From Oscillospiraceae bacterium (GTDB lineage Bacteria; Bacillota; Clostridia; Oscillospirales; Oscillospiraceae): a stretch of 64,000 bases of DNA. Positions 4,732 through 48,655 of this stretch are shown here, one piece after another. Numbering within the stretch: position 1 is the first letter of the stretch; each line of letters begins with the position of its first letter. Where the stretch lies: contig WRMH01000001.1 of assembly GCA_009777235.1 (NCBI GenBank), forward strand, positions 186,001 through 250,000. The letters run 5' to 3'. The notes under the pieces were generated by a model. The model was given only the letters and a program-made list of their open reading frames with translations. It had not been told where the DNA came from and searched no databases. The translations under genes were made by a program, and so were the position numbers.

Positions 4732-4813
4732 AATAATGCACCTCCGCCGCTATTTTACCGCAAACCGTTCACAATTGCAACCATTTGATTGTGATACAAA
4801 AGTTTAAAACTGC

Positions 4814-4882: not shown

Positions 4883-5000
4883 CGCTTTACGCGAATTATT
4901 TTTCGTTTTTTAGAAAATTCTGTGAAAAAGGTAATTACTGCACAAAAACAACGCCAAAGAGCTAACTATGGTGAAAACGGTATTCACATTTAACCTTTTT

Positions 5001-10001: not shown

Positions 10002-10116
10002 GGGTGATTTTCTCTTGCCGGTACGCGCCCGCCGCCGGACAAGGTTCAAATAATATAGCAGCGTTGATTTTTCACAAGATTTCGAATAGTATTATCTATA
10101 GCTTGAGGTGCTTGCT

Positions 10117-13100
10117 TTGATCAAAAACAGAAAATTTTCTTCGACCGCGCTTTTACTTTCATTTTCCGCCGCTTTGCTCTGTGCCGCCGCGTTTTTCATA
10201 ACCTCATGCCGGCAAGACGGCGGCGTAGCCTTTGACATAAACTCGATTACATCATATCAGCAAATACCAAATGTCACGCAACAAGAAATTGACGCAATCG
10301 AAGCGTTAAAAGCGCAAAGAGACGGCTTTTCCTTTGGATCGGTGACATCAACAGAAGCCTTTATGTCGGAAGACGGCACGCCAAAAGGATTTGCCGTGCT
10401 GCTTTGCGATTTGCTGACCGGGCTCTTTGACATACCGTTTGCGCACGAATCGGACGCATGGGGTCGGATACTTCGCGACTTTACGGACGGCGAGATTGAT
10501 TTTGCCGGAGATTTAACTGCCACGCCGGAGCGCAGGCAGAGCTTTTTCATGACAAACCCCATTTTGGAACGCGAGCTGAAAGCGTTCTATGTAAACGAGA
10601 CGTTTGTGATAAACGACGAACATGACATAGACGGCAAGGTGGTCGGATTTTTAGAAAATACTATTACGGCAGATTCCATTATGAACGCATATCCGTATTT
10701 GAACCTTTCGATAGTATGGCTCGAAAACTCCCAGCAAGCTCTCGAATATCTCTTGGACGGAAAAATAGATATCTTTATAAACGACGAAAACGGAAGCTGG
10801 AGATTTAGCGATTATCCCCAAATCTCCAGCCGGTATGTGTTTTCACTCGTATATACCCCCGTCTCTTTGTCCACCGCGCGGCCGGAGCTTGAGCCGATCA
10901 TTTCCGTTGTTGACAAATACTTGGCGGCGGGCGGCATTTTCAAGCTCTATGAGCTATATAGCATGGGAACCGACGAATATGCAAGCTATGCGTACATCAA
11001 AAGCCTCCCGGAGGCCGAAAGAGATTACATAGCTCGCCTGCAAGAAACAGGCGAAAAGATACCCGTCGCAATGGAATCGGCAAATTATCCCATATCTTAT
11101 TGGGATGATTCATACGGATATCAAGGCATAGCGCCGGACATTCTCGCAAAGATAAGCGCTCTGACGGGTCTTGAATTTGAAATTGTAACGAATAAGGACA
11201 TGGCATGGTCGCAGATTTTGGATATGCTTACAGACGGGCGGGCTTCTCTCGTTACAAATCTTATTTATAACGAAAAGCGCAAGGACCTCTTTCTATGGCA
11301 CGATACTCCATACTTTACGTCAAACTACGCCTTTATATCAAAAAACGATTATCCCGACTTAAAGCTGACCCAAGTTATACAGGCTACCGTCGGCGTTACA
11401 AGAGATACGGCGTTCGCGGACTTGTATGAGCGCTTGTTCCCGGATAGTACAAGCGTCATATACTTTGATTCCTCACAGGAGCATTACGAAGCGTTCATGC
11501 GCGGCGATACAGACCTGATGCTGACGTCAGAATCGCGGATATACGCTTTTGCGCATTACTTTGAAAGCCCGGATTATAAGGTAAACCTTGTGTTGCCTTA
11601 TTATACGGAAGAGTCATATTTGGGCATCAATTTAAACGAAACCGAGCTTTGCGCCGTCATATGTAAAGCTCTTGAGTACATAGATACTCAAACAATCGTG
11701 CGCGAGTGGCAAAACAGGACATTTGACTACACAAGGCAAGCCGCAATCCGCCAAACCCAAAGCAGAAACACATATATTGCCGTTCTCATTGTACTGCTTT
11801 GCGTAATATCGATCCTCTATGTCTACAACAGGCGGAAAAACGCAAAAATCGCGGAGCAGTCGGTGCTCTTGTCGGCGATTTTCCAGACCTTGCCGGAACG
11901 TATCTGTTTAAAGGACGCGCAGGGAAGATACATGAAATGCAACGCCTCGTATGAACACTTTGCCGGCAAAAAAGAAGCGGATATCATGGGAAAGACAACA
12001 AAGGATATTTTCCCGCAAGACCAGGCGTTTTGGCAGCAAATGATGGCAATGGACGAAATCGTTTTGACCGCGGGCACTACGGAATCAATGGAAGCGTGGC
12101 TCAAAGCGAGCGACGGCACGCACCGGCTTTGTGAAATAGTCAAAATGCCGCTCAAGCAAAACGGCAAAGTGACCGGAATGTTGGTCTATACAAAGGATAT
12201 CACGGAGCATAGGGAGGCTTTGGAGCGACTGCGTGAATACACAAACCAAGAGATTATAAACTATATGCTCACGACACAGTCCTTGCGTATCGCTCCGTGG
12301 GATATTGATATTTCCGGCGGCGACCCCCTAAATCCAAACAGCAAGCCCCGATGGTCCGCGCAGATGCGCGAGATGCTTGGATTTTCGGACGAAAACGATT
12401 TGCCAAACGTGATGACGGCATGGACAGACATCCTGCATCCGGAAGACAAAGAAACCACGGTAACGGCGTTTCTCGCGCACATCAACGATTTTAGCGGAAA
12501 TACGCCCTATGACTGTGAGCAGCGGATCATGACAAAGAGCGGCACATACAGGCATTTTCGCTGTTTTGGCGAAACGCTCAGAGATGAAAACGGTGTGCCG
12601 CTGAAAATGGCGGGTGCGCTGGAAGACATAACCGAGAAAAAAGAGCTTGAAGAGTCCGTAAATCAAAAAAGGGAAATGATCGAGGCTGTCAACACCGCGG
12701 CCACATACCTTCTCAACACGGACATAGAGAGCTTTGGCCAGGCTCTCTATCAAAGCATGGGGACGCTCGCCTTGGCCGTCCGAGCCGACCGTATGTATGT
12801 TTGGAAAAACCACACGGCCGACGGAAAACTCTACTGTACGCAGGTGCTTGAGTGGTCTGAGGGCGCCGAGCCTCAGCAAGGCGGCGAATACGCGACAGAC
12901 ATTTCTTATGACGATCTTGCCAAGGGCATAGATATAATTTTATCGCAAGGCAACTACTTCAACGCGATAGTCAGCACTCTTCCCGATGAGCAAAAAGTAA
13001 ACCTTGTGCCGCAAGGGGTGCTTTCAATACTGCTTGTTCCTATAATGATGAAAGGCGAATTTTGGGGTTTTGTGGGATTTGATGATTGCAGCAATGAGCG

Positions 13101-14748
13101 TTTGTTTTCAGAAAGCGAACAGGCGGTTCTTCATTCCGCGAGTTTATTATACGCCCACGCGTATCAGCGCAACGAAACGCTTACGCAGCTTGAACACGCT
13201 TTGCAAAAAGCAAATAAGGCTAGCCGCGTCAAGACAGATTTTCTCGCGAAAATGAGCCATGAAATACGAACTCCCATGAACGCCATTATCGGCATGACGG
13301 AGCTTGCTTTGCGCAATGACGACACCGGGCGAATGGTGGAGCACATACTTCCGGTAAAACAGGCCGCGTCAAACCTTTTATCAATCGTCAATGAGATTTT
13401 GGATTTTTCCAAGATAGAATCGGGAAAAATGACGCTGGCTCCAAAAGACTACTCCGTCGCGCAGCTTATAGACGAGGTCGTCAGCATTATCCGCATGAGA
13501 ATGACGAGTGCGCTCGTGCGCTTTACGGTTTTGGCTGACAGCAGCATCCCCAGCGCGTTATATGGCGACGAATCACGAGTCCGTCAAGCCGTTTTGAATG
13601 TGCTTATCAACGCGGTGAAATATACAAGGGAAGGCTTCGTAACCTTTGGCGTGCATAGCGAGATTGTAAATGATGAAACCGTAAATATAATAATGGAAGT
13701 AAAGGACACGGGCATAGGCATAAAAGAGGAAGATATTGACGAGCTGTTTACCGATTTTACGCAGTTTGACCTTGAAAAAAACGAAGGCGTCGAGGGCGTT
13801 GGACTGGGGCTTGCCATTACCAAGAGCATAGTAGAGGCTATGGGCGGCGAAATCAGCGTCGAGTCTGTATACGGCAGAGGCACCACAATCAGGCTTTCAA
13901 TACCGCAAAAATATCACACTCCGGCAACACCTCTCGCGGCGGTAGAAAAACCAAAAGATAAGAAAGTGCTGCTATATGAGCGGCGGGAAATATACGCGCA
14001 GGCATTTGACCACTCGTTTGGCGGGCTTGAAGTGGACTACACGCTTGTCAAAAACGGGGTTGAATTATACGAGCAAATGGAAAAGCAAGACTTTGACTAT
14101 CTTTTCATAACATACGCGGTATACAGGAAAAATGAAGAAACGATAGTGAAGTTCGGCAAAAACACAAAGGTAGTCATATTGGCGGAGTATAGCGAAGTGA
14201 TTCCCGAACGCGATCTGTCTGTGCTGACACTGCCGGTATATTGTACGCACGTCGCCTGCATCCTAAATGATGCCGATTATAAAGAAACGTACTATATGAA
14301 CGAAGCAAAGCAGGAAACCTTTGCGGCACCGGACGTTTTGATACTCATCGTAGACGATCTGAGGACAAACCTTGCCGTGGCAAAAGGGTTGCTCGGGCCG
14401 TACAAAATACGCACCGAGCTGTGCAGCGGCGGCGCCGCGGCTGTCGAAGCCATAAAAAAAGCCTCCGGCAAAGCTGCCGATAAGCGTTACGATTTGGTGT
14501 TTATGGATCATAGGATGCCGGGTGTAGACGGCATTGAGGCTACCTCGCAAATCAGAAAGCTGGGTAAAACCAACGAGTATTGCCGGAAGCTGCCAATAAT
14601 CGCGCTCACGGCAAACGCCGTTTTGGGCGCAAAGGAAATGTTCTTAAACAGCGGCTTTAACGATTTTCTGTCAAAACCGATTGACACGGAGGCTCTCCAC
14701 ACAATGCTCGAAAAATGGATACCAAAGGATAAGCAAAAACCCCTGTAG
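10117..14748 (+). CDS. Hybrid sensor histidine kinase with two periplasmic solute-binding domains
   Basis: About 1543 residues. The TTG at 10117 is preferred because GAGGTG lies six bases upstream; GTG 10108 is the longer option (used for numbering here). Order: signal/lipobox-like ITSC (~34), two tandem SBP_bac_3 domains (~70-290 and ~310-545), a membrane helix (~554-576), PAS (~590-700), PAS (~720-850), GAF (~860-1010), HisKA with H1051 in SHEIRTP, HATPase_c with DTGIGI and GLGLAI (~1150-1270), a degenerate receiver (~1290-1395), and a canonical receiver with phosphoacceptor D1467 (FMDHRMPG). It should sense small amino-acid-like ligands outside and feed a phosphorelay. No partner regulator is adjacent. 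Confidence 0.88.
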   Translation: MIKNRKFSSTALLLSFSAALLCAAAFFITSCRQDGGVAFDINSITSYQQIPNVTQQEIDAIEALKAQRDGFSFGSVTSTEAFMSEDGTPKGFAVLLCDLLTGLFDIPFAHESDAWGRILRDFTDGEIDFAGDLTATPERRQSFFMTNPILERELKAFYVNETFVINDEHDIDGKVVGFLENTITADSIMNAYPYLNLSIVWLENSQQALEYLLDGKIDIFINDENGSWRFSDYPQISSRYVFSLVYTPVSLSTARPELEPIISVVDKYLAAGGIFKLYELYSMGTDEYASYAYIKSLPEAERDYIARLQETGEKIPVAMESANYPISYWDDSYGYQGIAPDILAKISALTGLEFEIVTNKDMAWSQILDMLTDGRASLVTNLIYNEKRKDLFLWHDTPYFTSNYAFISKNDYPDLKLTQVIQATVGVTRDTAFADLYERLFPDSTSVIYFDSSQEHYEAFMRGDTDLMLTSESRIYAFAHYFESPDYKVNLVLPYYTEESYLGINLNETELCAVICKALEYIDTQTIVREWQNRTFDYTRQAAIRQTQSRNTYIAVLIVLLCVISILYVYNRRKNAKIAEQSVLLSAIFQTLPERICLKDAQGRYMKCNASYEHFAGKKEADIMGKTTKDIFPQDQAFWQQMMAMDEIVLTAGTTESMEAWLKASDGTHRLCEIVKMPLKQNGKVTGMLVYTKDITEHREALERLREYTNQEIINYMLTTQSLRIAPWDIDISGGDPLNPNSKPRWSAQMREMLGFSDENDLPNVMTAWTDILHPEDKETTVTAFLAHINDFSGNTPYDCEQRIMTKSGTYRHFRCFGETLRDENGVPLKMAGALEDITEKKELEESVNQKREMIEAVNTAATYLLNTDIESFGQALYQSMGTLALAVRADRMYVWKNHTADGKLYCTQVLEWSEGAEPQQGGEYATDISYDDLAKGIDIILSQGNYFNAIVSTLPDEQKVNLVPQGVLSILLVPIMMKGEFWGFVGFDDCSNERLFSESEQAVLHSASLLYAHAYQRNETLTQLEHALQKANKASRVKTDFLAKMSHEIRTPMNAIIGMTELALRNDDTGRMVEHILPVKQAASNLLSIVNEILDFSKIESGKMTLAPKDYSVAQLIDEVVSIIRMRMTSALVRFTVLADSSIPSALYGDESRVRQAVLNVLINAVKYTREGFVTFGVHSEIVNDETVNIIMEVKDTGIGIKEEDIDELFTDFTQFDLEKNEGVEGVGLGLAITKSIVEAMGGEISVESVYGRGTTIRLSIPQKYHTPATPLAAVEKPKDKKVLLYERREIYAQAFDHSFGGLEVDYTLVKNGVELYEQMEKQDFDYLFITYAVYRKNEETIVKFGKNTKVVILAEYSEVIPERDLSVLTLPVYCTHVACILNDADYKETYYMNEAKQETFAAPDVLILIVDDLRTNLAVAKGLLGPYKIRTELCSGGAAAVEAIKKASGKAADKRYDLVFMDHRMPGVDGIEATSQIRKLGKTNEYCRKLPIIALTANAVLGAKEMFLNSGFNDFLSKPIDTEALHTMLEKWIPKDKQKPL

Positions 14749-28676: not shown

Positions 28677-28773
28677 GTCATAAAAATCATTCCGATAGCG
28701 GAGCACGGATGCGGAGCGTCCGATCGTCTGCGCAAGGATGACGCAGTTGATCGGGGAGGAATGATTTTATGAC
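28677..28773. repeat. Covarying palindromic element, copy A
   Basis: 97 bp. Outer arms GTCATAAAAATCATTCC and GGAATGATTTTATGAC pair; inside are hairpin GGATGC-GGA-GCGTCC and a long hairpin closed by CCGATC/GATCGG with inner CTGCG/CGCAG. It would fold as a three-way junction in RNA or a cruciform in DNA. It lies inside the infB-rbfA gap and is therefore transcribed with the operon. Related copies: 33120-33250, 39894-39991, and a partial copy at 28788. Confidence 0.85.
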
Positions 28774-28787
28774 CGAAGAAAATCACA

Positions 28788-28829
28788 ATAAAAATCATTC
28801 CGACAGCGGAGCACGGATGCGGAGCGTCC
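28788..28829. repeat. Covarying palindromic element, partial copy A'
   Basis: The left arm and first hairpin (ATAAAAATCATTCCGACAGC through GGATGCGGAGCGTCC) are repeated once more, but the second hairpin and right arm are missing. It follows copy A by 14 bp, suggesting incomplete duplication or slippage. Confidence 0.8.
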
Positions 28830-28838
28830 TATTCATAA

Positions 28839-31271
28839 CTAAATGTTTACAATCTCCTCCATCGCAAAACACTCAATGACATCGCCGAGCTTAACATCGT
28901 CAAATTTCTCGAGCGAAATACCGCATTCATAGTTTGTCAAAACCTCGCGGACATCATCCTTGAAACGCCGCAGCGAAGCAATCTCGCCCTCGTGGATGAC
29001 GATACCGTCACGCACCACCCGCGCCTTACCGCTGCGAATAATCTTACCGTTTTGCACATATGAGCCGCAAATAGTACCGGCGGCGGAAGACTTAAATATA
29101 TCGCGAACCTCGGCCTGCCCGTATGTGACCTCGTGAAACTTGGGAGAAAGCATACCCTTCATAGCAAGCTCGATCTCGTTGATACACTCATAGATGACGC
29201 GATACATACGCACATCAACATTGCTGCGAACGGCGCTGTCGCGGGCGGCGTTGTCCGGGCGGACATTAAAGCCGACGATAATAGCGCCGCTTGTGGACGC
29301 GAGCATGATGTCACCCTCGCTGATGGCGCCGACGCCGGAATGAATAACACGCACGCGAACCTCTTCGTTTGTCAGCTTCTCTAAAGAAGCCTTTATAGCC
29401 TCCGCGCTTCCGACAACGTCCGCCTTGACGATAATGTTCAAATCCTTGAGCTCGCCCTCTTGAATACGCGCAAACAAATCTTCCAAAGAAACCTTCATTA
29501 CACCCGCCGCTATGCCGCGCTTTTCATGCCTTCGCTCTTCGGCCAATTCTTTTGCCATACGCTCATCCGTGACGACATTAAACATATCCCCGGCAAGAGG
29601 AACTTCGGACAGGCCGGAAATTTCCACAGGGACGGAAGGCCCCGCCGTTTCTATACGTTCACCGGAATCGGACATCATCACGCGCACATTGCCGACGGCA
29701 GTACCCGCTATGATCGTATCTCCTTGTTTTAACGTGCCATTTTGAACAAGCACGGTCATGAGCGGCCCGCGCCCCTTGTCGAGCTTCGCTTCAATGACAG
29801 TTCCGCGAGCCAAACGGTTTGGGTTTGCGCGAAGCTCCGCTATCTCGGCGGTCAATATGATCATTTCAAGCAAATGGTCAATGCCTTCGCCCGTCTTTGC
29901 GGAAATCGGGCAAACAATGGTTTCGCCGCCCCACTCCTCGGGCACAAGCTCGTATTCTGTGAGCTGCTGCATGATCTTGTCGGGATTAGCCCCCGAAACA
30001 TCTATCTTATTGATGGCGACGATAATCGGTATGGACGCCGCTTTTGCGTGGTTGATAGACTCAACTGTTTGCGGCATAATGCCGTCGTCCGCCGCGACCG
30101 TGAGAATTGCTATGTCCGTAATGCTTGCCCCGCGGGCGCGCATTGCCGTAAAAGCCTCATGGCCCGGAGTGTCTAAGAAAGTGATGGTGTTGCCGTGTAT
30201 GGAAGTCTGGTAAGCCCCGATATGCTGTGTGATACCTCCCGCTTCTTCCGATACGACGCTCTCTTTGCGAATTTTGTCAAGCAATGACGTTTTTCCGTGG
30301 TCAACGTGACCCATGACCACCACGACCGGGGCACGCGGCACCAAATCCTCACTCTTGTCCTCGCTGTCATCAAAGAGGCGTTCTTCTATAGTCACCACAA
30401 TCTCTTGCTGAACCTTACAGCCCATCTCAATAGCCACAAGCGACGCCGTATCTTGGTCAATTATATCGGAAACAGAAACCATAACGCCCATCTTGACAAG
30501 CTGGCGCACAACCTCGGCGCCGGTTCTCTTCATACGGGAGGCAAGGTCTCCGACGGCGATTTCCTCCGGTATCAAAACCTTGACGGGAACCTTCTTCGCA
30601 ACCTCAAGGTGCAGCCTATGCAGTCTGTCGCGCTCTTCCTGACGCTTTTTTGCGCCGTGCGCCATGTTTTGCATGGGCGTCCTTGCCTTGCGGACGATTT
30701 TTTCTTTGCCGTATCTCATGCGTTCGGCGCGTTCGGGTACTAAGCTGTCGAGCCGCTCGTCATATTTTGACATATTTATTGTCGCGCCGGATGTATCAAC
30801 AACGCGCTTTTGCGGCGTCAGATGGGGCATAAACGGTTTGTCTATCTTCTTTTTCGGAGCCGCCTGCTGCGCCGCGGGGGCTTTATCCAAGCCGGATGCA
30901 GCTGCAGCTTCCGCGCCGCCTGCCGCGCCGCCCGAGCCGGATGAGCCGTCTGACGTTTTGCCCGCGGCGGGCTCGCCGTCGGCGCTTTGCGCACCGTCCG
31001 CCGACGCGCTGTCTTTTGTATCGCCGCCTGTGCCGCCGTCAGGGGCAGGAGAGGGCAACGGCGCGCCTTCGGATAAAACGACCGAAACATCTTCGATTTG
31101 ATTATTAAAGGTCAAATACGCGAAAATAATGTCAAGCTCTTTGATGGAGAGGATGTGCATATGATTTTTTGGCATTGTAGCATATTTTGTGAGTATTTCC
31201 GTAATCAATTTTGTTGTCACATTGAAATCCTTGGCGATTTCGTGAACTCTGTATTTAAACATTGTACTCAT
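28839..31271 (-). CDS. infB: Translation initiation factor IF-2
   Basis: 810 residues: N-terminal IF2N helix (YRVHEIAKDFNVTTK), a low-complexity Ala/Gly/Asp/Ser linker (~75-140), a second IF2N region (~220-280), and the G domain with VVVMGHVDHGKTSLL (G1), FLDTPGHEAF (G3), AINKID (G4), followed by EF-Tu-like and C-terminal domains. It places initiator tRNA on the 30S subunit. Its ATG overlaps the ylxQ stop by 4 bp after GGAGGGTGAT. Confidence 0.95.
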   Translation of the reverse strand: MSTMFKYRVHEIAKDFNVTTKLITEILTKYATMPKNHMHILSIKELDIIFAYLTFNNQIEDVSVVLSEGAPLPSPAPDGGTGGDTKDSASADGAQSADGEPAAGKTSDGSSGSGGAAGGAEAAAASGLDKAPAAQQAAPKKKIDKPFMPHLTPQKRVVDTSGATINMSKYDERLDSLVPERAERMRYGKEKIVRKARTPMQNMAHGAKKRQEERDRLHRLHLEVAKKVPVKVLIPEEIAVGDLASRMKRTGAEVVRQLVKMGVMVSVSDIIDQDTASLVAIEMGCKVQQEIVVTIEERLFDDSEDKSEDLVPRAPVVVVMGHVDHGKTSLLDKIRKESVVSEEAGGITQHIGAYQTSIHGNTITFLDTPGHEAFTAMRARGASITDIAILTVAADDGIMPQTVESINHAKAASIPIIVAINKIDVSGANPDKIMQQLTEYELVPEEWGGETIVCPISAKTGEGIDHLLEMIILTAEIAELRANPNRLARGTVIEAKLDKGRGPLMTVLVQNGTLKQGDTIIAGTAVGNVRVMMSDSGERIETAGPSVPVEISGLSEVPLAGDMFNVVTDERMAKELAEERRHEKRGIAAGVMKVSLEDLFARIQEGELKDLNIIVKADVVGSAEAIKASLEKLTNEEVRVRVIHSGVGAISEGDIMLASTSGAIIVGFNVRPDNAARDSAVRSNVDVRMYRVIYECINEIELAMKGMLSPKFHEVTYGQAEVRDIFKSSAAGTICGSYVQNGKIIRSGKARVVRDGIVIHEGEIASLRRFKDDVREVLTNYECGISLEKFDDVKLGDVIECFAMEEIVNI

Positions 31272-31672
31272 AACGCATCACCCTCCTTTATTTCCGACTT
31301 TGTCTCCGCTTTTGTTTTTGCTTGCGCCGTCAAATTTAGCGTCCGGCCGGCCTCGGTCAGCTTATCGGTAAATCCTTTGGCAAGCCCTTTATCCAATATG
31401 GCAATGACGCCGGGAGACCCCCGCCCGGTAATGCTTCCGAGCTCAAATTTAGTATATGGGACAGGGAGATATTTGATGTTTTGCATTGCCGAATTTTCTT
31501 TTGCCCGCCTAACGCTTCTTTCGGACGCGTCACACGCCGAAATGATAAGCCGCGCTTTTCCGTGTCTGGCCGAAATTGCGGCAGCCTCGCCTCCAATGGC
31601 AAGAAAACCTGCTTTTTTCGCTATTCCCAATAATCCAAGGGCTTTATCCACTTTGTTTCTCCAACTCGTCAA
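31268..31672 (-). CDS. ylxQ: L7Ae-family RNA-binding protein YlxQ
   Basis: 134 residues. N-terminal L7Ae/L30e-like fold (ALGLLGIAKKAGFLAIGGEA, ARLIISACDASERS) with an unusual ~35-residue basic/acidic tail. It is expected to bind kink-turn RNA. Overlaps ylxR by 29 bp and infB by 4 bp. Confidence 0.85.
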   Translation of the reverse strand: MTSWRNKVDKALGLLGIAKKAGFLAIGGEAAAISARHGKARLIISACDASERSVRRAKENSAMQNIKYLPVPYTKFELGSITGRGSPGVIAILDKGLAKGFTDKLTEAGRTLNLTAQAKTKAETKSEIKEGDAL

Positions 31673-31898
31673 ACACGTCTTTTGGTATTTCCGTTTTTAA
31701 TGCGCGTGACAGCGCGTTTGATTTTTGCACTCGCGCAAAACACTTTTTATCCTTACAGACATATGCCCCCCGCCCGTTGCTTTTTCCCAAGGCATCCAAC
31801 TCTACAGACCCGCCGGGAGCTCTTACGACACGAATAAGGTCGTTTTTGGTTTTCATTTCCCGGCACCCGAGGCACATTCTAAGCGGCGTTTTCTTCAT
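31644..31898 (-). CDS. ylxR: YlxR (DUF448) RNA-binding protein
   Basis: 84 residues with the family motif RMCLGCREMKTKNDLIRVV and RGAYVCKDKKCFARVQKSNAL. YlxR proteins are nucleic-acid-binding partners coded next to nusA. Overlaps nusA by 4 bp. Confidence 0.9.
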   Translation of the reverse strand: MKKTPLRMCLGCREMKTKNDLIRVVRAPGGSVELDALGKSNGRGAYVCKDKKCFARVQKSNALSRALKTEIPKDVFDELEKQSG

Positions 31899-32947
31899 GC
31901 TTGCGATTCCGATTTAATATCTATTTTGAAGCCTGTGAGACGGGCCGCAAGACGGACATTTTGACCCTCTTTTCCTATCGCGAGAGATAATTGGTTGTCG
32001 GGGACAACGACGCGGCATGATTTGCCGTCCTCGTTGATGAGGACATCAATAACCTCTGACGGAGCCAGCGCGGAAGCGATGTATTCTGCGGGGTCCTCGT
32101 TATATCTGACAATGTCAATCTTTTCGCCGTTTAGTTCATTGACGATTGCGTTCACGCGAGCGCCTTTTGTTCCAACGCAAGCGCCAATCGGTTCAATGGC
32201 GAGGTCGTTTGATTCGACGGCAATCTTTGTCCGGTTTCCTGCTTCGCGGGCTATGCTGCGTATCTCGACTATGCCGTCGGCGATTTCCGGGACTTCAAGC
32301 TCAAACAGCCGCTTTACAAGGCCGGGGTGCGTGCGCGATATAAGAATGAGCGGGTCGCGGGTAGATTTTTTTACTTCGATAACATAGACCTTTATCCTGT
32401 CTCCGTCGCGGAGCGGCTCGCCTGGTATACGCTCGTTCGACGACAGAACAGCCTCCGTATGCTCGGAGTTTGAACCGATTTGTATCGCCGCGTTTCCGGT
32501 GCGCGGGTCAATACGCTGCACGATACCCGTGAGTATTTCATGCTCTTTTGACGTAAACTCGTCATAGATCATGTTCCGCTCCGCTTCGCGTATGCCTTGA
32601 ACAATGACCTGCTTTGCCGACTGCGCGGCGATTCGCCCAAATCTGGTTTTATCAACAGGCTCGGTGACAACGTCTCCTATGTTTATGCCTTTTATGATTT
32701 CACGCGCTTGCTCGAGCGAATATTGCGTTCTGGGATTGTCAACTTTTTCTACGACTTGCTTCTCCAAAAACATATCCACAGTCTTTTCGACGGGGTCGAG
32801 CACGACACGCGCACAATCGGATTCCAATGGATAATCCTTTTTTAGCGCGGCCAAAAGCGCTTGCTCAATTTTATCAATCATGTAGGCTTGCGGTATTCCT
32901 TTTTCTTTTTCGATATCGGCTATTGCAGCGAAAAACTCCCGATTCAT
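31895..32947 (-). CDS. nusA: Transcription termination/antitermination factor NusA
   Basis: 350 residues: N-terminal RNA polymerase-binding domain (~1-125), S1 (~135-200, GIVQRIDPRTGNAAIQIG), KH1 and KH2 (~230-345, with PIGACVGTKGARVNAI and LAIGKEGQNVRLAARLTG). It lacks the acidic C-terminal repeats of proteobacterial NusA, as usual in Bacillota. First gene of the operon; rimP, normally just upstream, is not here. A terminator-like hairpin stands in its leader. Confidence 0.95.
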   Translation of the reverse strand: MNREFFAAIADIEKEKGIPQAYMIDKIEQALLAALKKDYPLESDCARVVLDPVEKTVDMFLEKQVVEKVDNPRTQYSLEQAREIIKGINIGDVVTEPVDKTRFGRIAAQSAKQVIVQGIREAERNMIYDEFTSKEHEILTGIVQRIDPRTGNAAIQIGSNSEHTEAVLSSNERIPGEPLRDGDRIKVYVIEVKKSTRDPLILISRTHPGLVKRLFELEVPEIADGIVEIRSIAREAGNRTKIAVESNDLAIEPIGACVGTKGARVNAIVNELNGEKIDIVRYNEDPAEYIASALAPSEVIDVLINEDGKSCRVVVPDNQLSLAIGKEGQNVRLAARLTGFKIDIKSESQA

Positions 32948-32990
32948 GGTAAAATAAACTCCTTATATTTACTTTCTTGTGGTTTTGCAG

Positions 32991-33014
32991 AAAAAAGAGT
33001 GGGGAATCCCACTC
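32991..33014 (-). terminator. Intrinsic terminator in the nusA leader (possible attenuator)
   Basis: Reverse strand GAGTGGG-ATTC-CCCACTC followed by six Ts. It lies downstream of the operon promoter and ~45 bp before the nusA ATG, so it would terminate leader transcripts unless bypassed. The palindrome GGAACGTTCC sits just upstream (33018-33027) and could take part in an alternative fold. Confidence 0.75.
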
Positions 33015-33068
33015 GTCGGAACGTTCCTTGCGGTGTGCTCACGGCGCATGAAAATAAGCACGAACGAA

Positions 33069-33097
33069 ATAATATCACACTTTTTCAGCAAATGCAA
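33069..33097 (-). promoter_or_regulatory. Promoter of the nusA-infB operon
   Basis: Reverse strand TTGCAT (33092-33097), 17 bp, TATTAT (33069-33074). Start predicted near 33062, giving a ~115-nt leader that contains the terminator hairpin. Confidence 0.7.
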
Positions 33098-33119
33098 GCA
33101 TTATTTTCCGGCCGTGTGT

Positions 33120-33250
33120 TTAAAAATTATTAAGCTGTCATAAAATTCATTCCGAGAGCGGAGCATGGATGCGGAGCGTCCGAACCGTCTGCGCAAGGAT
33201 GACGCAGTGGTTCGGGGAGGAATGATTTTATGACAGCGTATAATTTTTAA
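33120..33250. repeat. Covarying palindromic element, copy B
   Basis: Same element as copy A, with longer outer arms: AAGCTGTCATAAAATTC pairs with the right-hand TTTTATGACAGC, and the flanking TTAAAAATTAT/TAATTTTTAA extends the pairing. The second hairpin is closed by CCGAACC/GGTTCGG here instead of CCGATC/GATCGG. It fills most of the gap between the ABC permease 3' end and the nusA promoter. Confidence 0.85.
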
Positions 33251-33278
33251 CAAAATCAGTGGCGAGCAGAAACTACAC

Positions 33279-34901
33279 CTACGCTGTCATATCGCGTTTC
33301 TTATACGCAAAAAGCCCGATAGCGGTGAGGCAAGCGGCAATAAGCGTCAATGCGCCCAAAGCGAGCCAGTTTACAGAATCCCTCGGAAGCAAAGGTATAT
33401 ATCCAAAAGGCGTGGTTTTGCCTATCCAGCCGGACAAACTTGGAATCATGCGCCCGAAAAACAGCGTAAACAGCGAGTAACCCATCATTGCCCAGCAGAT
33501 GAACGTCGCTCTCGGAATCAGCCCGACCAGCAAAACGGCAAGGCCGATTATCACCCACAGCGCGGGCAGGTAAATCATTGTAGCGTTAAAACAGAAACTA
33601 AAAGATATAGGGGTGTCCATAACCGAAACGGCGCTCGCGTATAGCCCGAGAGCGGACGCAAACGTCGCGGCGACGCTCACGGCAAAAGCCAAAAACGTAT
33701 ACCCGCCAAAATAGCGCACACGCGAGACAGAGCGGGAGAGCACATGCTCTATGCGCCCGTCTTTCTCCTCCGAACGCAGTTTTAGAGAGGCAATCAGGAC
33801 GGGGATCACGCAGCAAATAGCAAGCATTACAATAATGGTTGAAGCGAAATTTTCAGCCAGTGAAATATCCGGGTCTATGACCATCAGGGTATAGTATATT
33901 TCGTTGCTTTCGAGAAAAGTCTCAATATCACCCAAAATTGCTCCGTATGAGACGGCGATCGCAAACAATCCGAACACCCACGCTATTAGCGGATTTCGCA
34001 GCAAACGCCATGACAAGCCGAGAGGAGAGAGCAATCCTTTTTTTGCCTCAGTGCGCCCCGGCCGCGCCGAAATGAAGCCCTGATCTATATCGCGGACTCT
34101 GTTTAGCGCGAAAGCAATCGCCACAGCGACAGCGGTTATGGCCAAAACCGCCAAGACAGGCAGCCAATCATTGCTGACAAAAGTCCGCGCGTGCAATAAA
34201 AGACCTATTGGCGACAGCGCCGTCATAATCGGGATGCTCCCCGAATCTTCGACATTCATGTCTCCCATAATCCGTACCATATAGGCAATCATCAAAAACA
34301 AAAAGGAAAAGCCGATAGCTCCCCGCGAGCTCACGCAAAGCTGACAGAACACGGCTGTCACTGCCGCCATAAACAGTCCGAACACGCCCATTGCGGCGCC
34401 GTAAAGCATACTGCCCTCAAAGTCCATTCCGTGCTCGGCGCCGACCGCCAGTATGCAAATACCTGATACTATGGCGATAACAGCGTTTACCGCGATTGCC
34501 GTGAGCACAGCCGCATTGAGTATTGACAGGCGTCCGACGGGCAGCGAGCGCACGACTTCTGTGCGGTTTCGCTCTTCGTCGGCTCGCGTATGCCGTGTCA
34601 TCAAAAATATGTTCATTATTCCGATGGTGATCAGCATCCACAGCAGCAGCATAGCGGAATACAGCCCGGCAAAGGTATCCCCGCCATCAAAAAGCGGTCC
34701 CATAAAGGCTCTCATTGCGGGGCTTTCAAGTGTGGTAATAAGCGCCGCCCGCTCCGCATCATCACCAAACATATTGGTAAGCAAAGGTATAAGTCCGGCG
34801 GAGAAAAAGACCAAAATGACAATCCATACCACAGACGTCACGCGCTCACGCCGCAGCATAAAGCGGGTAAGTTTAAGGCTTCCTGCAAAAAACTCTTTCA
34901 A
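33279..34901 (-). CDS. ABC exporter permease, two-half ABC-2 type
   Basis: 540 residues with about 12 membrane helices in two halves (helices at ~20-45, 68-92, 115-150, 160-210, 225-260, then 300-330, 350-380, 405-440, 450-480, 505-530), separated by a basic loop (SARPGRTEAKKGLLSPLG). The layout resembles the ABC-2-like exporter permeases paired with DrrA-type ATPases, often linked to drug or peptide export. The partner ATPase is directly upstream. Substrate unknown. Confidence 0.75.
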   Translation of the reverse strand: MKEFFAGSLKLTRFMLRRERVTSVVWIVILVFFSAGLIPLLTNMFGDDAERAALITTLESPAMRAFMGPLFDGGDTFAGLYSAMLLLWMLITIGIMNIFLMTRHTRADEERNRTEVVRSLPVGRLSILNAAVLTAIAVNAVIAIVSGICILAVGAEHGMDFEGSMLYGAAMGVFGLFMAAVTAVFCQLCVSSRGAIGFSFLFLMIAYMVRIMGDMNVEDSGSIPIMTALSPIGLLLHARTFVSNDWLPVLAVLAITAVAVAIAFALNRVRDIDQGFISARPGRTEAKKGLLSPLGLSWRLLRNPLIAWVFGLFAIAVSYGAILGDIETFLESNEIYYTLMVIDPDISLAENFASTIIVMLAICCVIPVLIASLKLRSEEKDGRIEHVLSRSVSRVRYFGGYTFLAFAVSVAATFASALGLYASAVSVMDTPISFSFCFNATMIYLPALWVIIGLAVLLVGLIPRATFICWAMMGYSLFTLFFGRMIPSLSGWIGKTTPFGYIPLLPRDSVNWLALGALTLIAACLTAIGLFAYKKRDMTA

Positions 34902-34919
34902 ACTTCACACCGCCTTTCC

Positions 34920-35663
34920 TTAAACCGCTTCACTTACTTTGTAATAGCGCATGAACAAATCTTCCATCGAATCGGGGAGCTTGCCGTCCTCCGCGGCGGC
35001 TTTTTGCTTGAGTTCGTCGAGCGTGCCGACCTGCATCAGCTTTCCTTTCATTATGATACCGACCCTGTCACACAGCCTTTCAACTTCGCTGAGTATGTGG
35101 CTTGAGAGGAAAATGCCTTTGCCGCTCTTTTTGAGTCTTTGCACTTGCTGTACAAAAACTTCTCCCATCAGCGGGTCAAGGCCGCTGGTTGGTTCGTCAA
35201 GCAGATATAAGTCGGCATCGGATGCAAACGCGGCAACGAGAGCGACTTTTTGACGGTTGCCCTTGGAATATGTTCTGCATTTCTTTGATGGGTCAAGGTC
35301 AAACGCCTCAAGCATTTCTTCGCGCATTGCCTTGTCTGAGCTGCCGCGCAAGCTAATAAACAAGTCAATGACCTCTCCTCCGGTAAGGTTTGGCCAAAGG
35401 TTGACATCACCCGGAACATAAGCTATGCGCTTGTGTATGTGGGTGGCTTCTTTCCACGCGTCCATGCCAAATACTTTTGCGCCTCCTGACGTCGCTTGCA
35501 ATATTCCGAGCAGTACGCGAATGGTGGTCGTTTTTCCGGCGCCGTTCGGGCCGATATAACCGAATACTTCTCCCTTTTTTACTGATAGGCTGATATCATC
35601 AAGCGCGGTAAATTTCCCGAATTTTTTTGTTAGGTTTGTGATTTCCAAGCTAAAATCTGACAT
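34920..35663 (-). CDS. ABC exporter ATPase (DrrA/CcmA-like)
   Basis: 247 residues: Walker A GPNGAGKTTT (~38-47), signature TYSKGNRQK (a variant of LSGGQ in which SKGN replaces SGGQ, common in this subfamily), Walker B LYLLDEPTSGLDP, and switch histidine LSSHIL. It pairs with the downstream permease gene, 18 bp away. Confidence 0.88.
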   Translation of the reverse strand: MSDFSLEITNLTKKFGKFTALDDISLSVKKGEVFGYIGPNGAGKTTTIRVLLGILQATSGGAKVFGMDAWKEATHIHKRIAYVPGDVNLWPNLTGGEVIDLFISLRGSSDKAMREEMLEAFDLDPSKKCRTYSKGNRQKVALVAAFASDADLYLLDEPTSGLDPLMGEVFVQQVQRLKKSGKGIFLSSHILSEVERLCDRVGIIMKGKLMQVGTLDELKQKAAAEDGKLPDSMEDLFMRYYKVSEAV

Positions 35664-35763
35664 TGCTCATCCCCTTTCTTTTTTGCACAGCTTCGTTAAC
35701 TATCCCTTTATTAGATTGTAAAGCATATTGACCAACATAGTCAAGAAATATCGCCCCTATCTG

Positions 35764-35798
35764 CAAAAGATAACGCCGCACGATGAGCGCGACGTTAT
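35764..35798 (-). terminator. Probable terminator behind the YjfB-like gene
   Basis: Reverse strand ATAACGTCGC/GCGGCGTTAT with one G-T pair and a 9-base loop, followed by CTTTTGC. The T-run is short, so efficiency is uncertain. Confidence 0.45.
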
Positions 35799-35860
35799 AT
35801 TATGACGTATAACTATTAAATTTTTGCGCAACACAAGTTTAATATGCCTATAGCGGCAAG

Positions 35861-36106
35861 TTATACAGATATGTCGTAGTTTGAGCCAACTCCCGTGGCG
35901 GCTGCCATAGAACTGATGAGTTCGTTTGCGGCATTTTCAAATTGCGTTTGCGCCATATCAAGAACCTGCATAGAAACCTGCGAGCTAAGCTGAACCGAGT
36001 CAACCGCTGAAACCCGCTCTATGTCCGCGCTTTGTACTTGTGGCTCCATTTGCGTCTGTGTTTGCGGCAAAACTTGAGCTGTTTGTGTTACTCCTGCAAT
36101 ATTCAT
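35861..36106 (-). CDS. YjfB-like putative motility protein
   Basis: 81 residues: MNIAGVTQTAQVL, a Gln-rich linker, then VQLSSQVSMQVLDMAQTQFENAANELISSM, resembling the YjfB motility family (short helical proteins found near or co-regulated with flagellar genes in Bacillota). No signal peptide. The upstream 100 bp contain CCGAT and TAAA words at loosely sigma-D-like spacing, too weak to call. The flagellar operon is 23 kb away. Confidence 0.55.
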   Translation of the reverse strand: MNIAGVTQTAQVLPQTQTQMEPQVQSADIERVSAVDSVQLSSQVSMQVLDMAQTQFENAANELISSMAAATGVGSNYDISV

Positions 36107-36328
36107 GTCATTGCCATCCTTTCTGCACCGCGCACATCGTAGTTTTAAGGTACTTTATGCGCATCGGAAACTCCTTTTTCCTTTGGGTAACCATCAGTTT
36201 ACCATGAAAGTTTACATAAAGCAAGTCTTTTTTTTGAAAAAATTTAAAAAATTTTTATGATAATTTTGCAAGCAGTGCGGCAATGTTGCAACCACCCCGC
36301 AGTCACCCCGCCGTTTTGCGTTTTTCAG

Positions 36329-36357
36329 TTGACAAAGCGCGGTAACGGACATACAAT
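36329..36357 (+). promoter_or_regulatory. Promoter of fucI
   Basis: TTGACA (36329-36334), 17 bp, TACAAT (36352-36357). Start predicted near 36364, leaving a ~35-nt leader with AGGAGC before the ATG. The remainder of 36107-36328 is AT-rich and shows nothing definite. Confidence 0.75.
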
Positions 36358-36398
36358 TATATATACAACAAAGCAACCAACAACACAGGAGCTATGCA

Positions 36399-38180
36399 AT
36401 GAACTATCCAAAAATTGGTATTCGCCCGACGATTGACGGCAGATGGGGCGGCGTGCGCGAGTCGCTTGAAGTAAAAACCATGAACATGGCAAGGTCAGCT
36501 TCCTCACTAATTTCACAGAACCTGCGTTATCCCGACGGAAAGCCCGTCGAGTGCGTAATCAGCAACACAACAATCGGCGGCGGCGCAGAAGCGGCAATGT
36601 GCGAGGAAACATTTTCGCGTGAAAACGTTGCGGCAACATTAACGGTTACTCCAAGCTGGTGCTATGGGTCGGAAACCTTTGACATGAACCCGAAAACGAT
36701 AAAAGCCGTTTGGGGATTTAACGGAACGGAAAGACCGGGCGCGGTTTATCTTGCGGCAGTAATGGCGGCGTATGCGCAAAAAGGATTGCCCGCATACAGC
36801 ATTTATGGAGAAGACGTGCAGGATTTGAGCGATGACACAATTCCGCCCGACGTAGCGGAAAAGATACTCGTTTTCGCAAAATGTGCGGTTGCTGTGGGAT
36901 GGATGAAAAATAAATCGTATGTAAATCTCGGCGGCGTATCAATGGGGATTGCCGGAAGCTACTGCAATGAAACATTCTTTCAAAAATATTTGGGCATACG
37001 GGCAGAGTGGGTGGACTTAACAGAGATTCTGAGGCGTATGAAAATCGGAATTTACGACAAAAACGAATTTGAAAAAGCGTTGGAGTGGATAAAAGCAAAC
37101 TGCAAAATGGGCTATGATAAAAACGAGAAAGCGGAGCTTGCGGAAATAGTCGCAAAATCTAAGGTCATACCCCCCGACGAGGATTGGACATTTATTGCAA
37201 AAATGACGGTCATTATAAAAGATATTTTGCACGGAAACCCGAAGCTCGCCGAAATGGGATGGCACGAAGAAGCACTTGGCAAAAATGCTGTTGCCGGAGG
37301 ATTTCAAGGGCAAAGGCATTGGACGGACTGGCTTCCGAACGGTGATTTCTGCGAGGCTATCTTAGCCTCGACGTTTGACTGGAACGGCGCACGAGAGCCC
37401 TTTGCGTTTGCTACGGAAAATGACACGCTAAACGGTGCCGCAATGCTCTTTGGCAAGCTCGTGTCCGACACATCCCCCGTGTTTCATGATGTCCGAACCT
37501 ATTGGAGTCCCGAAGCGGTAGAAAAAGCGAGCGGCAAAAAACCTCAAGGCGAAGCGGCAGCAGGCTTTATACACCTGATTAACTCCGGAGCGGCGGCGCT
37601 CGACGGAACGGGAGCCTCAAAAAATGACAGCGGAGCGGGGCTGATGAAGCCGTGGTGGGAGATGACAAAAAATGACATTACCGCTTGCCTGAATGCCACG
37701 CGTTGGTGCCGCGCAGACTATTCATATTTCAGGGGCGGCGGGTATTCAAGCGCATGGGACAATATCGCGTCAATGCCTGTTACAATGCTTCGTGTAAATA
37801 TAATTGACGGAGTTGGTCCCACGCTTCAAATCGCGGAAGGACAAACCGTATTGCTCGATAAAGACACGCATAAAATTCTCACAGACAGAACAGACCCCAC
37901 ATGGCCAACGACATGGTTTGTGCCGAACCTTACAGGGCATGGCGCGTTTACTGATGTCTACGGCGTTATGGCGGCTTGGGGGTCGAACCACAGCGTAACT
38001 GTTTACGGTCATGTCGGAGATAGGTTAATAACACTCGCTTCAATGCTCAGGATTCCTGTTTCCTTGCATAACATTAAAGAAACCCGCGCATTTCGCCCGC
38101 ACGCTTGGGCGGCGTTTGGCATGAACGCGGACGCGGCAGATTACAAGGCTTGCGAGGTTTACGGCCCTCTCTACGGATAA
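36399..38180 (+). CDS. fucI: L-fucose isomerase
   Basis: A 593-residue enzyme collinear with E. coli FucI from MNYPKIGIRPTIDGR to YGPLYG. Manganese/catalytic residues correspond to E319 (GDFCEAIL), D342 (ATENDTLNG) and H531 (WGSNHSV). It interconverts L-fucose and L-fuculose (also D-arabinose and D-ribulose). No fucK or fucA follows; the next gene is an esterase, so the rest of the fucose pathway must lie elsewhere. Confidence 0.95.
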   Translation: MNYPKIGIRPTIDGRWGGVRESLEVKTMNMARSASSLISQNLRYPDGKPVECVISNTTIGGGAEAAMCEETFSRENVAATLTVTPSWCYGSETFDMNPKTIKAVWGFNGTERPGAVYLAAVMAAYAQKGLPAYSIYGEDVQDLSDDTIPPDVAEKILVFAKCAVAVGWMKNKSYVNLGGVSMGIAGSYCNETFFQKYLGIRAEWVDLTEILRRMKIGIYDKNEFEKALEWIKANCKMGYDKNEKAELAEIVAKSKVIPPDEDWTFIAKMTVIIKDILHGNPKLAEMGWHEEALGKNAVAGGFQGQRHWTDWLPNGDFCEAILASTFDWNGAREPFAFATENDTLNGAAMLFGKLVSDTSPVFHDVRTYWSPEAVEKASGKKPQGEAAAGFIHLINSGAAALDGTGASKNDSGAGLMKPWWEMTKNDITACLNATRWCRADYSYFRGGGYSSAWDNIASMPVTMLRVNIIDGVGPTLQIAEGQTVLLDKDTHKILTDRTDPTWPTTWFVPNLTGHGAFTDVYGVMAAWGSNHSVTVYGHVGDRLITLASMLRIPVSLHNIKETRAFRPHAWAAFGMNADAADYKACEVYGPLYG

Positions 38181-38247
38181 ACTGTTATTTGTTCAAACTA
38201 CAAGAATCAAATATAGCGCAGTATATAATATTAAGGTGTGACTGATT

Positions 38248-39825
38248 TTGAACGTAAAACTACCGAAAATAATAAGCTCAGGAATGATAATCGAAAAAAC
38301 CGCTCGTATATGGGGGACTGCCGACGACTGCGAAGCGGCGGAAACCTCCGTAGAAATCTCCTTTTGCGGGAAAAAATACTATGCGGACATTCAAGACGGA
38401 AAATGGGAAGCGGTTATTTTATCCAACGATTACGGCGGTCCGTATGACATGACCATTGGGGACATAACCCTCTCGGATATATTTGTGGGGCGTGTCTTTA
38501 TGCTTGGCGGTCAATCCAACATGGAAATGCCCGTAAGCCGAGTGCGGTTAAAATATGACGACGATTTCAAGGGGCTGACCCATAACCCGCGTATTCGGGC
38601 ATTTCTGGTGGAGCGGGATTATGAATTTCACGCACCGAGAAGTGACTGCAAGGGCAGTTGGCGGTCTGTCAGTCCGGAAACCGTTGACAATTTTTTTGCC
38701 GTGTCATTTTATCTGTCGCGCATATTAGAAAAAGCCTTAGACATACCTATCGGGCTGATTGAATGTGCTGTGGGCGGTTCGCGAATTGAAAGCTGGATGA
38801 ATGAAGCGGAAACAGTTTTTCACGGCTATACTGCCGAACTTCTGCGGTTGTGCAAGCACGAGGGGTTCGTAGAGCTTATAACCCGAGAGGACGAAAAAAG
38901 AGTCAACGAATGGAAACAGAATGTTCTTGACAATGACCAAGGGCTTGCCGATAAATATTTCAGTGACGATTATGACGATATGGGTTGGAAAACCCGCAAT
39001 CTTACAAAGGATTGGGAAGAAGATATAGGGTTATTTTTCGGCTCAACATGGTTTAGAAAAACCTTTGAAATCGGCGATGAAATGGCAAACTCCCCCGCAA
39101 GGCTTCTGCTTGGCACAATCTCAGACAGCGACACAGTATATCTCAACGGTGTTATTGTCGGTCAAACATGGTACAAATACCCGCCGCGAGCCTATGACAT
39201 TCCGCAAGGAGTGTTGCGCAGCGGGCGCAATACAGTTGCGGTGCGTGTTGTCAGCGAGCGTGAATACGGCGGATTTACCGCAGGCAAGGAGTACAAGCTC
39301 AAAACAGCGGCGGGAGAGATTTCTCTCGACGGTGACTGGGCGTACCGACACGGTTATGAAACCTGCGAATTGCCGCCCGCCACTCAGTTTGTTAACTATC
39401 CGAGCGGATTATATAACGCCATGCTCGCGCCGATAATGCCGTTTTCAATATCTGCGTTTTTGTGGTATCAGGGCGAGAGTAATTCTTCCTCACCATACAT
39501 ATATGACAAGCTGCTTGCTGAATTTCTGTCGTACATACGCGCAAAGCACAGAAAAGAGCTGCCCTTTGTTGTGGTGCAGCTGCCAAATTATGATGCGGGC
39601 GCACTCAATGATAACTGGCGGATTGTCCGAGAAAAACAGGCAACAATTCTGAATTACCCAAATACTGCTATGATTGTCACAACGGACATAGGCGAGGACA
39701 ATGACTTGCACCCGCTTAACAAAAAAGAACTCTCAAACAGACTCGCCGAAGCAACACTGTACTTGCTCAGAGGTGACACGATAAAAACCGTTGACAAAGT
39801 AAAAATACTCCCCTCAACATCATAA
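38248..39825 (+). CDS. Sialate O-acetylesterase-like SGNH hydrolase, short C-terminus
   Basis: 525 residues from TTG 38248 (AAGGTG upstream). Catalytic serine block MLGGQSNMEMP (~88-98), a jelly-roll-like insertion (~235-380), WYQGESN, and the acid/base block DLHPLNKKELSNRL near the end. Such enzymes remove O-acetyl groups from sialic acids or other acetylated sugars. No signal peptide, so it is probably intracellular. The usual C-terminal beta domain after DxH is missing: the last seven codons (KILPSTS and stop) are the 5' arm of a terminator. Confidence 0.82.
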   Translation: MNVKLPKIISSGMIIEKTARIWGTADDCEAAETSVEISFCGKKYYADIQDGKWEAVILSNDYGGPYDMTIGDITLSDIFVGRVFMLGGQSNMEMPVSRVRLKYDDDFKGLTHNPRIRAFLVERDYEFHAPRSDCKGSWRSVSPETVDNFFAVSFYLSRILEKALDIPIGLIECAVGGSRIESWMNEAETVFHGYTAELLRLCKHEGFVELITREDEKRVNEWKQNVLDNDQGLADKYFSDDYDDMGWKTRNLTKDWEEDIGLFFGSTWFRKTFEIGDEMANSPARLLLGTISDSDTVYLNGVIVGQTWYKYPPRAYDIPQGVLRSGRNTVAVRVVSEREYGGFTAGKEYKLKTAAGEISLDGDWAYRHGYETCELPPATQFVNYPSGLYNAMLAPIMPFSISAFLWYQGESNSSSPYIYDKLLAEFLSYIRAKHRKELPFVVVQLPNYDAGALNDNWRIVREKQATILNYPNTAMIVTTDIGEDNDLHPLNKKELSNRLAEATLYLLRGDTIKTVDKVKILPSTS

Positions 39826-39840
39826 GGGGAGTATTCTTTT
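39804..39840 (+). terminator. Terminator overlapping the esterase stop codon
   Basis: AATACTCCCCT and AGGGGAGTATT (11 bp) close a ~10-base loop, followed by CTTTT. The TAA (39823-39825) lies at the loop/right-arm junction, so the coding sequence ends within the hairpin. Confidence 0.85.
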
Positions 39841-39893
39841 AGCCCCAATGTGCGGCAGAGGTTTTTAGAAGTAATGCAACCCACCACAAAGCG

Positions 39894-39991
39894 GTCATAA
39901 AATTCATTCCGAGAGCGGAGCATGGACGCGGAGCGTCCGATCGTTTGCGCACGGATGGACGCAATTGATCGGGGAGGAATGATTTTATGAC
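39894..39991. repeat. Covarying palindromic element, copy C
   Basis: Same element, with the first hairpin perfect (GGACGC-GGA-GCGTCC) and the inner stem of the second hairpin changed on both sides (TTGCG/CGCAA instead of CTGCG/CGCAG). It lies between the esterase terminator and the rnj 3' end. Confidence 0.85.
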
Positions 39992-48473: not shown

Positions 48474-48655
48474 TCTATATATCGAAAAAACGCGAAAATC
48501 CGATATATGGAAATCTATATATCGGAAAAACGCGAAAATCCGATACATGGGATTCTATATATCGAAAAAAGGCGAAAATCCGATATATGGAAATCTATAT
48601 ATCGGAAAAACGCGAAAATCCGATACATGGAAATCCATATATCAAGAAAATACAG
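48474..48655 (+). repeat. 40-bp tandem repeat, 4.5 units
   Basis: Units at 48474, 48514, 48554 and 48594 plus a partial at 48634. Units 1 and 3 (CGAAAAAA, ATATGGAAA) and units 2 and 4 (CGGAAAAAC, ACATGG) are each other's closest match, so an 80-bp block was duplicated. Each unit contains CTATATATCGG and CCGATATATGG as an inverted pair around CGCGAAAA. It starts two bases after the fic stop. There are no unique spacers, so it is not a CRISPR array. Confidence 0.92.

Follow-up and report, generated by a model that had tools for sequence, protein, structure and literature searches.

Is a palindrome of about 100 bp that recurs in a clostridial genome a mobile DNA element, a structured RNA, or both? 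The question was raised by a stretch of 64,000 nt of an Oscillospiraceae bacterium (contig WRMH01000001.1, positions 186,001–250,000; "the window" below), in which the initial annotation had described three full copies and one partial copy of such an element. All four were found again, the full ones as palindromes of 97–98 nt with two inner hairpins. The features are given below; the loop consensus CANGGANG was taken from a passage of PMC4894983.

28677..28773, + strand: copy 1, full, arm family I; between infB and rbfA (NCBIfam), antisense to both
28704..28711, + strand: hairpin 1 loop of copy 1, CANGGANG, here CACGGATG; read from sequence
28733..28740, + strand: hairpin 2 loop of copy 1, CANGGANG, here CAAGGATG; read from sequence
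28788..28829, + strand: partial copy, comprising just the left arm and hairpin 1, with loop CACGGATG at 28812–28819
33137..33234, + strand: copy 2, full, arm family I; flanked by an ABC-2 permease-like gene and by nusA and antisense to the two
33164..33171, + strand: hairpin 1 loop of copy 2, CANGGANG, here CATGGATG; read from sequence and fold
33194..33201, + strand: hairpin 2 loop of copy 2, CANGGANG, here CAAGGATG; read from sequence and fold
39894..39991, + strand: copy 3, full, arm family I; downstream of the 38248–39825 gene in the same sense, convergent with the RNase J gene
39921..39928, + strand: hairpin 1 loop of copy 3, CANGGANG, here CATGGACG; read from sequence
39950..39957, + strand: hairpin 2 loop of copy 3, CANGGANG, here CACGGATG; read from sequence

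The second copy had been placed at 33120; an element is there, but it begins at 33137, the 17 bases before it being flank that partly pairs with the other flank. Copies 1 and 2 are antisense to their neighbours (permease-like, nusA, ylxQ-like, infB and rbfA); copy 3 has the same orientation as the gene preceding it. Copy 1 lies between infB and rbfA, in what had been described as their operon; the called rbfA ORF has its GTG start at 28706, inside the copy, and its match to RbfA starts only from residue 20. The ABC-2 Pfam match of the permease-like gene was below the cut-off.

Other features of the window were recorded in passing. At 48474–48650 a 40-bp unit containing TATATATCG and CGATATATGG is repeated in tandem 4.4 times; an 86-nt stretch occurs three times (1106–1191, 3745–3830 and 4799–4884; 83–88% identity to the reference copy), its end being taken up by the first part of one coding sequence; and a 300-nt repeat (1–300 and 2433–2732) is 90% alike. 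The ORF at 1139–2857 has an AMP-binding domain, and 10108–14748 encodes a hybrid sensor kinase of 1546 aa that combines solute-binding, PAS, GAF, kinase and receiver domains.

The genome carrying the window comprised 2,626,098 bases in 58 contigs and was 92% complete. With up to two mismatches allowed, a 21-nt core of the element was found at 88 places in it and the reversed pattern at none, and the right arm at 78 places and its reversed pattern at one, excluding chance. A covariance model (R1) gave 90 matches, and blastn with the element at least 42, with 40 of 101 candidates scored. The element is genuine, and its copies are far more numerous than the initial annotation reported. Among the 88 copies, 45 had no core mismatch, 40 had one and three had two; collection by pattern bounds this divergence, but with only three copies at two mismatches the limit hardly bites.

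Most copies (63 of 88) were full-length members of arm family I (GTCATAAAA...TTTTATGAC). Family II (CAGACCC...GGGTCTG) had nine copies plus one I/II chimera, and six family I copies had one arm of a third sequence, TGAGGCAAC. The right arm with GGGGAGG-AATG, noted before as resembling a translation start, is a true feature of family I but not a general one, family II and the sister-species copies that were inspected having different right arms.

RNA folding of copy 2 gave an outer stem and a three-way junction with two hairpins (z −5.7; stem energy −43.7 kcal/mol), and DNA folding recovered the same junction (z −6.5), in agreement with the fold proposed earlier. Two sister sequences were also folded as DNA: one kept the junction, in the minimum-energy fold only, and the other did not. 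Hairpin 1 reads GC-GNA-GCA-NGGA-NGC-GGA-GC, with a hexaloop ANGGAN closed by C-G; its 3 × 3 internal loop (GNA/GGA) could, judging from the sequence, hold two sheared G-A pairs flanking a free central position. Hairpin 2 ends in the same CANGGANG loop, on a stem that varies.

Variation in the core was confined to few places. In more than one of the 88 copies only positions 4 (G79 T6 A3), 9 (T84 A2 C2), 13 (T60 C26 G1 A1) and 17 (G85 A3) varied; positions 6 and 10 had one variant copy each. The two N of CANGGANG correspond to positions 9 and 13; positions 4 and 17 are the facing middles of the tandem-GA loop. The hairpin 2 loop was kept in 84 of 88 copies, its first N being C in 28, T in 27, A in 23 and G in six. 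Two CANGGANG sites, spaced 28–31 nt from start to start, were present in 83 of the 88 copies.

The initial annotation had listed three stem changes as compensatory. Two of them are: CCGATC/GATCGG versus CCGAACC/GGTTCGG, for which the further versions ATC/GAT and GCC/GGC were seen, and CTGCG/CGCAG versus TTGCG/CGCAA, a pair that is UA in 30, CG in 28 and UG in one of 59 distinct copies. More compensated stem versions (AC/GT, AT/AT, GC/GC and T/GA) shift the register and lie outside the 59-copy count. GGATGC versus GGACGC opposite GCGTCC turned out to be non-compensatory, since GCGTCC is constant and the pairing is not kept in aligned same-genus sequences. A GGAYGC/GCGTCC hairpin was ruled out as the general fold, the same-genus sequences having the GNA/GGA hairpin instead.

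In the within-genome alignment of the 59 distinct full-length family I copies, 96.8% of cells were paired, and the covariation score was 0.067 against 0.052 after shuffling; a single pair was changed on both sides, in 28 sequences, mostly tracking stem subtypes. A cross-species alignment of 43 distinct rows was built from 45 matches at 39 chosen loci and fitted to a model with nine hand-chosen seeds. In its hairpin 2, five pairs were changed on both sides in 69 cells, compared with 19.8 after shuffling (0 of 500 shuffles), and the covariation score was 0.357 against 0.095 (0 of 500), slid partners giving at most 0.099. Covariation in additional copies, on which the earlier reading of the fold had been made to depend, was thus found for hairpin 2 across species. 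In neither alignment did the count of doubly changed pairs (1 and 5) or that of additional pair types (13 and 10) exceed the shuffles. Hairpin 1 had no covariation support, four of its five pairs being invariant or varying once in both alignments; the fifth, the innermost A-U pair, was open in 12 of the 43 cross-species rows and in 17 of the 59 within-genome rows. For the fold, hairpin 2 has the support of covariation and the remainder that of folding energy.

Stem changes in a palindrome can also come from template switching, by which one arm is copied onto the other, and the covariation would then be mutational and the fold not selected. Two observations suit this explanation. One is the single pair changed on both sides within the genome, mostly following the stem subtypes, and the other is the flanks. 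Family I copies are often embedded in longer, partly palindromic flanks, some common to several copies and some copy-specific, and the initial annotation was correct that copies differ in flank pairing: the mean stem extension over 64 copies was 3.34, compared with 1.98 when flanks were dealt out anew (0 of 2000 shuffles). Selection acting on the core would not account for this copy-specific pairing. Unique flanks pairing across family I copies were seen in G000, for example at C2:61067, C6:21531, C6:44675 and C5:19890, with scores up to 10. Such copy-specific pairing would arise from insertion into hairpin loops such as those of terminators, or from template switching. As template switching leaves unexplained the invariant loops with their free N, the tandem-GA loop and the near-constant spacing across different stems, we consider it very improbable as the source of the covariation.

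The covariance-model search that the initial annotation had called for was extended to relatives. Model R1, with seeds from family II of the window's own genome and from G002, G008, G013 and G014, had matches in 11 of the 19 genomes of the genus: 90 in the own genome, 65 in G014, 40 in G009, 29 in G008, 28 in G013, 27 in G002, 24 in G010, 13 in G003, nine in G007 and one each in G001 and G004 (the latter at E 0.002). Matches in G001, G003, G007 and G010 were independent of the seeds, because these came from other genomes. In copies from G002, G007, G008, G009, G013 and G014 the arms were unlike families I and II (those of G008 and G009 being alike), and the hairpin 2 stems were unlike family I, some resembling family II. 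The core was kept in the copies read from these six genomes, and so were both loops, with one exception, a G007 copy (CACGAAG). At L070, L071, L077 and L080, copies of G008/G009 adjoin low-complexity GTAGGGAGTAGAG-type repeats.

A scan with the core pattern took in 24 stretches of genome_contigs and one of viral_contigs. Six of the 25 loci, with nine matches, were inspected by eye; apart from repeats in L093 and L102, the matches look like chance, and neither arms nor hairpin 2 were seen. These repeats, from unrelated phyla, have a GGATGCGGAGCATCC-like hairpin and, in the part inspected, no second one; they lie on a Bacteroidetes contig (L093, 7847–7934; 33-bp spaced) and on an Armatimonadetes contig (L102, 3629–3757; two repeats 107 bp apart).

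The closest known family is TwoAYGGAY (RF01731, clan CL00106), a predicted CsrA binder. At Rfam gathering scores the sole match in the window was a tRNA, and at relaxed thresholds RF01731 was the best Rfam match of the element: window copy 2 scored 27.2 bits and L063 and L106 34.3 each, below the gathering threshold of 43, while L061, L070, L072 and L110 gave no RF01731 match up to E 5. The own genome had none at E 0.01 under strict filters, with seven of 62 candidates scored. In the alignment of copy 2 to RF01731 both loops line up. The AYGGAY loop occurs twice, as CANGGANG, in those 83 of 88 copies, some of which depart from the strict Y since A and G are also found at N; hairpin 1 has GNA/GGA across species, with putative GA pairing, and the arms differ, as in the poorly conserved external stem of that family. 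Conversely, R1 found three of 30 RF01731 loci at E 0.01 and in the right place: L181 (20.8 bits, E 3.7e-5), L173 and L180.

A search of 391 genomes of the class, in which up to seven candidates per genome were scored, found RF01731 in 37, with 26 exceeding the cut-off. In 18 of these, picked mostly for high scores or several matches, it was multicopy, with 4–23 copies each. Thirty loci were fetched and 29 placed (L175, near a contig end, was dropped); a simple ORF caller put 28 of them between genes and one inside an ORF. Two CANGGANG sites, spaced 27–30 nt, were present in 15 of the 29 and one site in 14. There was no strand bias among these loci of other genera: in tandem gaps eight were sense and 11 antisense, and six loci were convergent, one divergent and two had one neighbour.

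In the own genome the 88 copies, placed with a codon-usage gene caller, were biased: in tandem gaps 38 were sense and 12 antisense (p 3e-4). The remainder comprised 21 convergent, 10 divergent and seven unclassed copies, the last with a neighbour missing or a called ORF crossing the copy. This supersedes the result of a cruder caller (25 sense, eight antisense, 22 convergent, two divergent; 31 of 88 overlapping ORFs or unclassed). Where the preceding gene was co-directional, 35 of 59 copies began at most 60 nt from its stop codon. No enrichment of promoters was found upstream of 87 copies, the best sigma-70-like scores being about those of the control side; exact TATAAT was present at 14 of 88 copies and at eight of 88 on the control side, and some copies have TTGTAC-17-TATAAT in common.

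REP elements stabilise or terminate messages of upstream genes. A copy behind a gene might act likewise in cis on that message, with or without CsrA, and the sense bias, the short distances from the stop codon and the very stable stem are all as expected of such a role. A stable stem alone needs no invariant loops, and further points against such a role are the 12 antisense copies, the 10 that separate divergent genes and the unbiased orientation of the loci in other genera; we regard a cis-acting element as unlikely.

The element has the terminal inverted repeats, small size and many copies of a MITE, and it could be just that, or another non-autonomous mobile palindrome, in which a transposase or recombinase recognises hairpins and core on single-stranded DNA and the resemblance to CsrA targets is coincidental. 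Near-identical dispersed copies, palindromic arms, the I/II chimera, the six copies with a third-sequence arm and the absence of strand bias in other genera are consistent with this, and so is the DNA folding, the strand of copy 2 folding alike and one of the two sister sequences retaining the junction. Presence and absence at orthologous sites also fit. Four G009 sites were looked up in G008: one was occupied, and three were without the element, one with the outermost ends joined at a TAAA microhomology, which reads as a putative deletion scar, and two with other sequence. No clean empty site with a target duplication was found among these four, and the comparison shows turnover rather than transposition.

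Other evidence argues against a purely mobile palindrome. The invariant part is the middle and not the ends, the arms differing between species and within the genome, and variation falls on the two N of CANGGANG. The outer stem of the 59 copies, read on the element strand, has G-U in 33 cells at nine pairs and A-C, equivalent to G-U when the opposite strand is read, in nine cells at four pairs; this asymmetry fits RNA better than DNA, although with related copies it is a lean and not a test. A partner transposase for the arms, which the initial annotation had suggested looking for, was not found in the own genome in a search for the Y1 or REP-type family (Y1_Tnp). A purely mobile palindrome therefore seems doubtful to us, if a more serious contender than a cis-acting one.

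What the conserved loops point to is CsrA. According to the passage of PMC4894983, an apical CANGGANG hexaloop is a high-affinity CsrA/RsmE target and the optimal spacing of sites is 18 nt. The element has paired hairpins with this hexaloop, as a CsrA-binding RNA would, and their spacing of 28–31 nt is wider than the optimum quoted there (PMC4894983). The own genome has one CsrA gene, with fliW adjoining; at L226 (G000:C2:31673–31828 and downstream, − strand), a CsrA with a 36-residue tail past the matched domain lies beside fliW. CsrA was present in 32 of 37 genomes with RF01731 and in 93 of 354 others (Fisher 7e-13, phylogeny ignored), and, by genus, in 23 of 23 with RF01731 compared with 78 of 223 overall (phylogeny again ignored). 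Five RF01731 genomes were without CsrA, two of them 95% and 98% complete. This association may reflect motile lineages. FliW was tried as a separator of CsrA from motility and failed: it occurred in 126 of 391 genomes and CsrA in 125, the FliW genomes being the CsrA genomes plus G270, and in the same 32 of 37 RF01731 genomes. Within the genus, CsrA was not found in G004, G013 (28 copies, 64% complete) or G014 (65 copies, 86% complete), and it was present in five genomes without the element (G005, G006, G011, G016 and G018).

We therefore favour, as narrowly probable, a dispersed, MITE-like element that carries a conserved RNA fold with paired predicted CsrA sites. The two possibilities named by the initial annotation, a MITE-like element and a dispersed structured RNA, look right together, the element being dispersed and its inner fold kept under differing arms; what that annotation missed were the CsrA-type loops and the kinship to TwoAYGGAY. 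In the mechanism that we propose, the outer palindrome would be a long stem of replaceable sequence holding the three-way junction, from which the two hairpins would each present a CANGGANG hexaloop, 28–31 nt apart, the first on the tandem-GA internal loop. A copy would be transcribed in the right sense, most often behind a preceding gene, and its RNA would offer both loops to CsrA. The scattered transcripts might then jointly sequester CsrA or tie individual messages to it. Points that speak against this reading are the antisense position of copies 1 and 2, the unbiased orientation of RF01731 loci in other genera, the genomes with many copies or with RF01731 in which CsrA was not found, the co-occurrence with FliW, the lack of covariation support for hairpin 1, template switching as another source of stem changes and the absence of promoter enrichment upstream.

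In a wider form, put forward only tentatively, a mobile repeat family may have spread CsrA-binding RNA modules through many Clostridia genomes, the arms being renewed in each lineage and the core kept, and the level of CsrA activity would depend on tens of transcripts from scattered sites and not on a single dedicated small RNA. According to passages of PMC4333381 (2014), CsrA-sequestering RNAs were known only from Gammaproteobacteria, with TwoAYGGAY as an untested clostridial candidate. If the element binds CsrA, the sponge would consist of dispersed repeats and not of a dedicated sRNA, and the genomes listed above would be direct test cases.

How does the element compare with known systems? 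PMC4333381 describes TwoAYGGAY as matching the CsrA motif twice, with tandem-GA pairs and with little conservation of the external stem, and proposes it as an unproven CsrA binder of Clostridia. In a table of PMC2864571 it is entered as probably an RNA and as probably without a cis-regulatory role; its Rfam type is cis-regulatory. Element and family share two AYGGAY-loop hairpins in a junction, a long external stem and tandem-GA pairs, and both are multicopy and mostly intergenic. The element differs in scoring 27–34 bits, under the gathering score of 43, and, unlike TwoAYGGAY, in that its first hairpin, the one with the GNA/GGA loop, contains a nearly invariant 21-nt core, its copy number goes up to about 90 and a single genome has several arm families. 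In the passages of PMC4333381 and PMC2864571 that deal with it, TwoAYGGAY is not described as a dispersed repeat.

The CsrB/CsrC and RsmX/Y/Z RNAs of Gammaproteobacteria sequester CsrA through GGA-loop hairpins (passages including one in PMC4333381). The element is like them in its GGA-loop hairpins; these RNAs gave no match in the window at gathering scores and were absent among the matches listed for six loci and 401 window bases. They are encoded at one or few loci with many sites each, and the element differs in having many loci with two sites each. No earlier description of a dispersed or mobile CsrA-binding element was seen among the matches listed in a literature search, as far as their titles and the openings of their abstracts go.

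As a DNA sequence the element is like RUP, Correia, BOX and REP/BIME, short palindromic intergenic repeats with tens of copies. From these, as generally described, it is set apart by its variable arms, its nearly invariant middle and loops that match a protein-binding consensus. If our reading is true, it would be a clear case of a repeat in which an RNA–protein site is selected and the arms are free.
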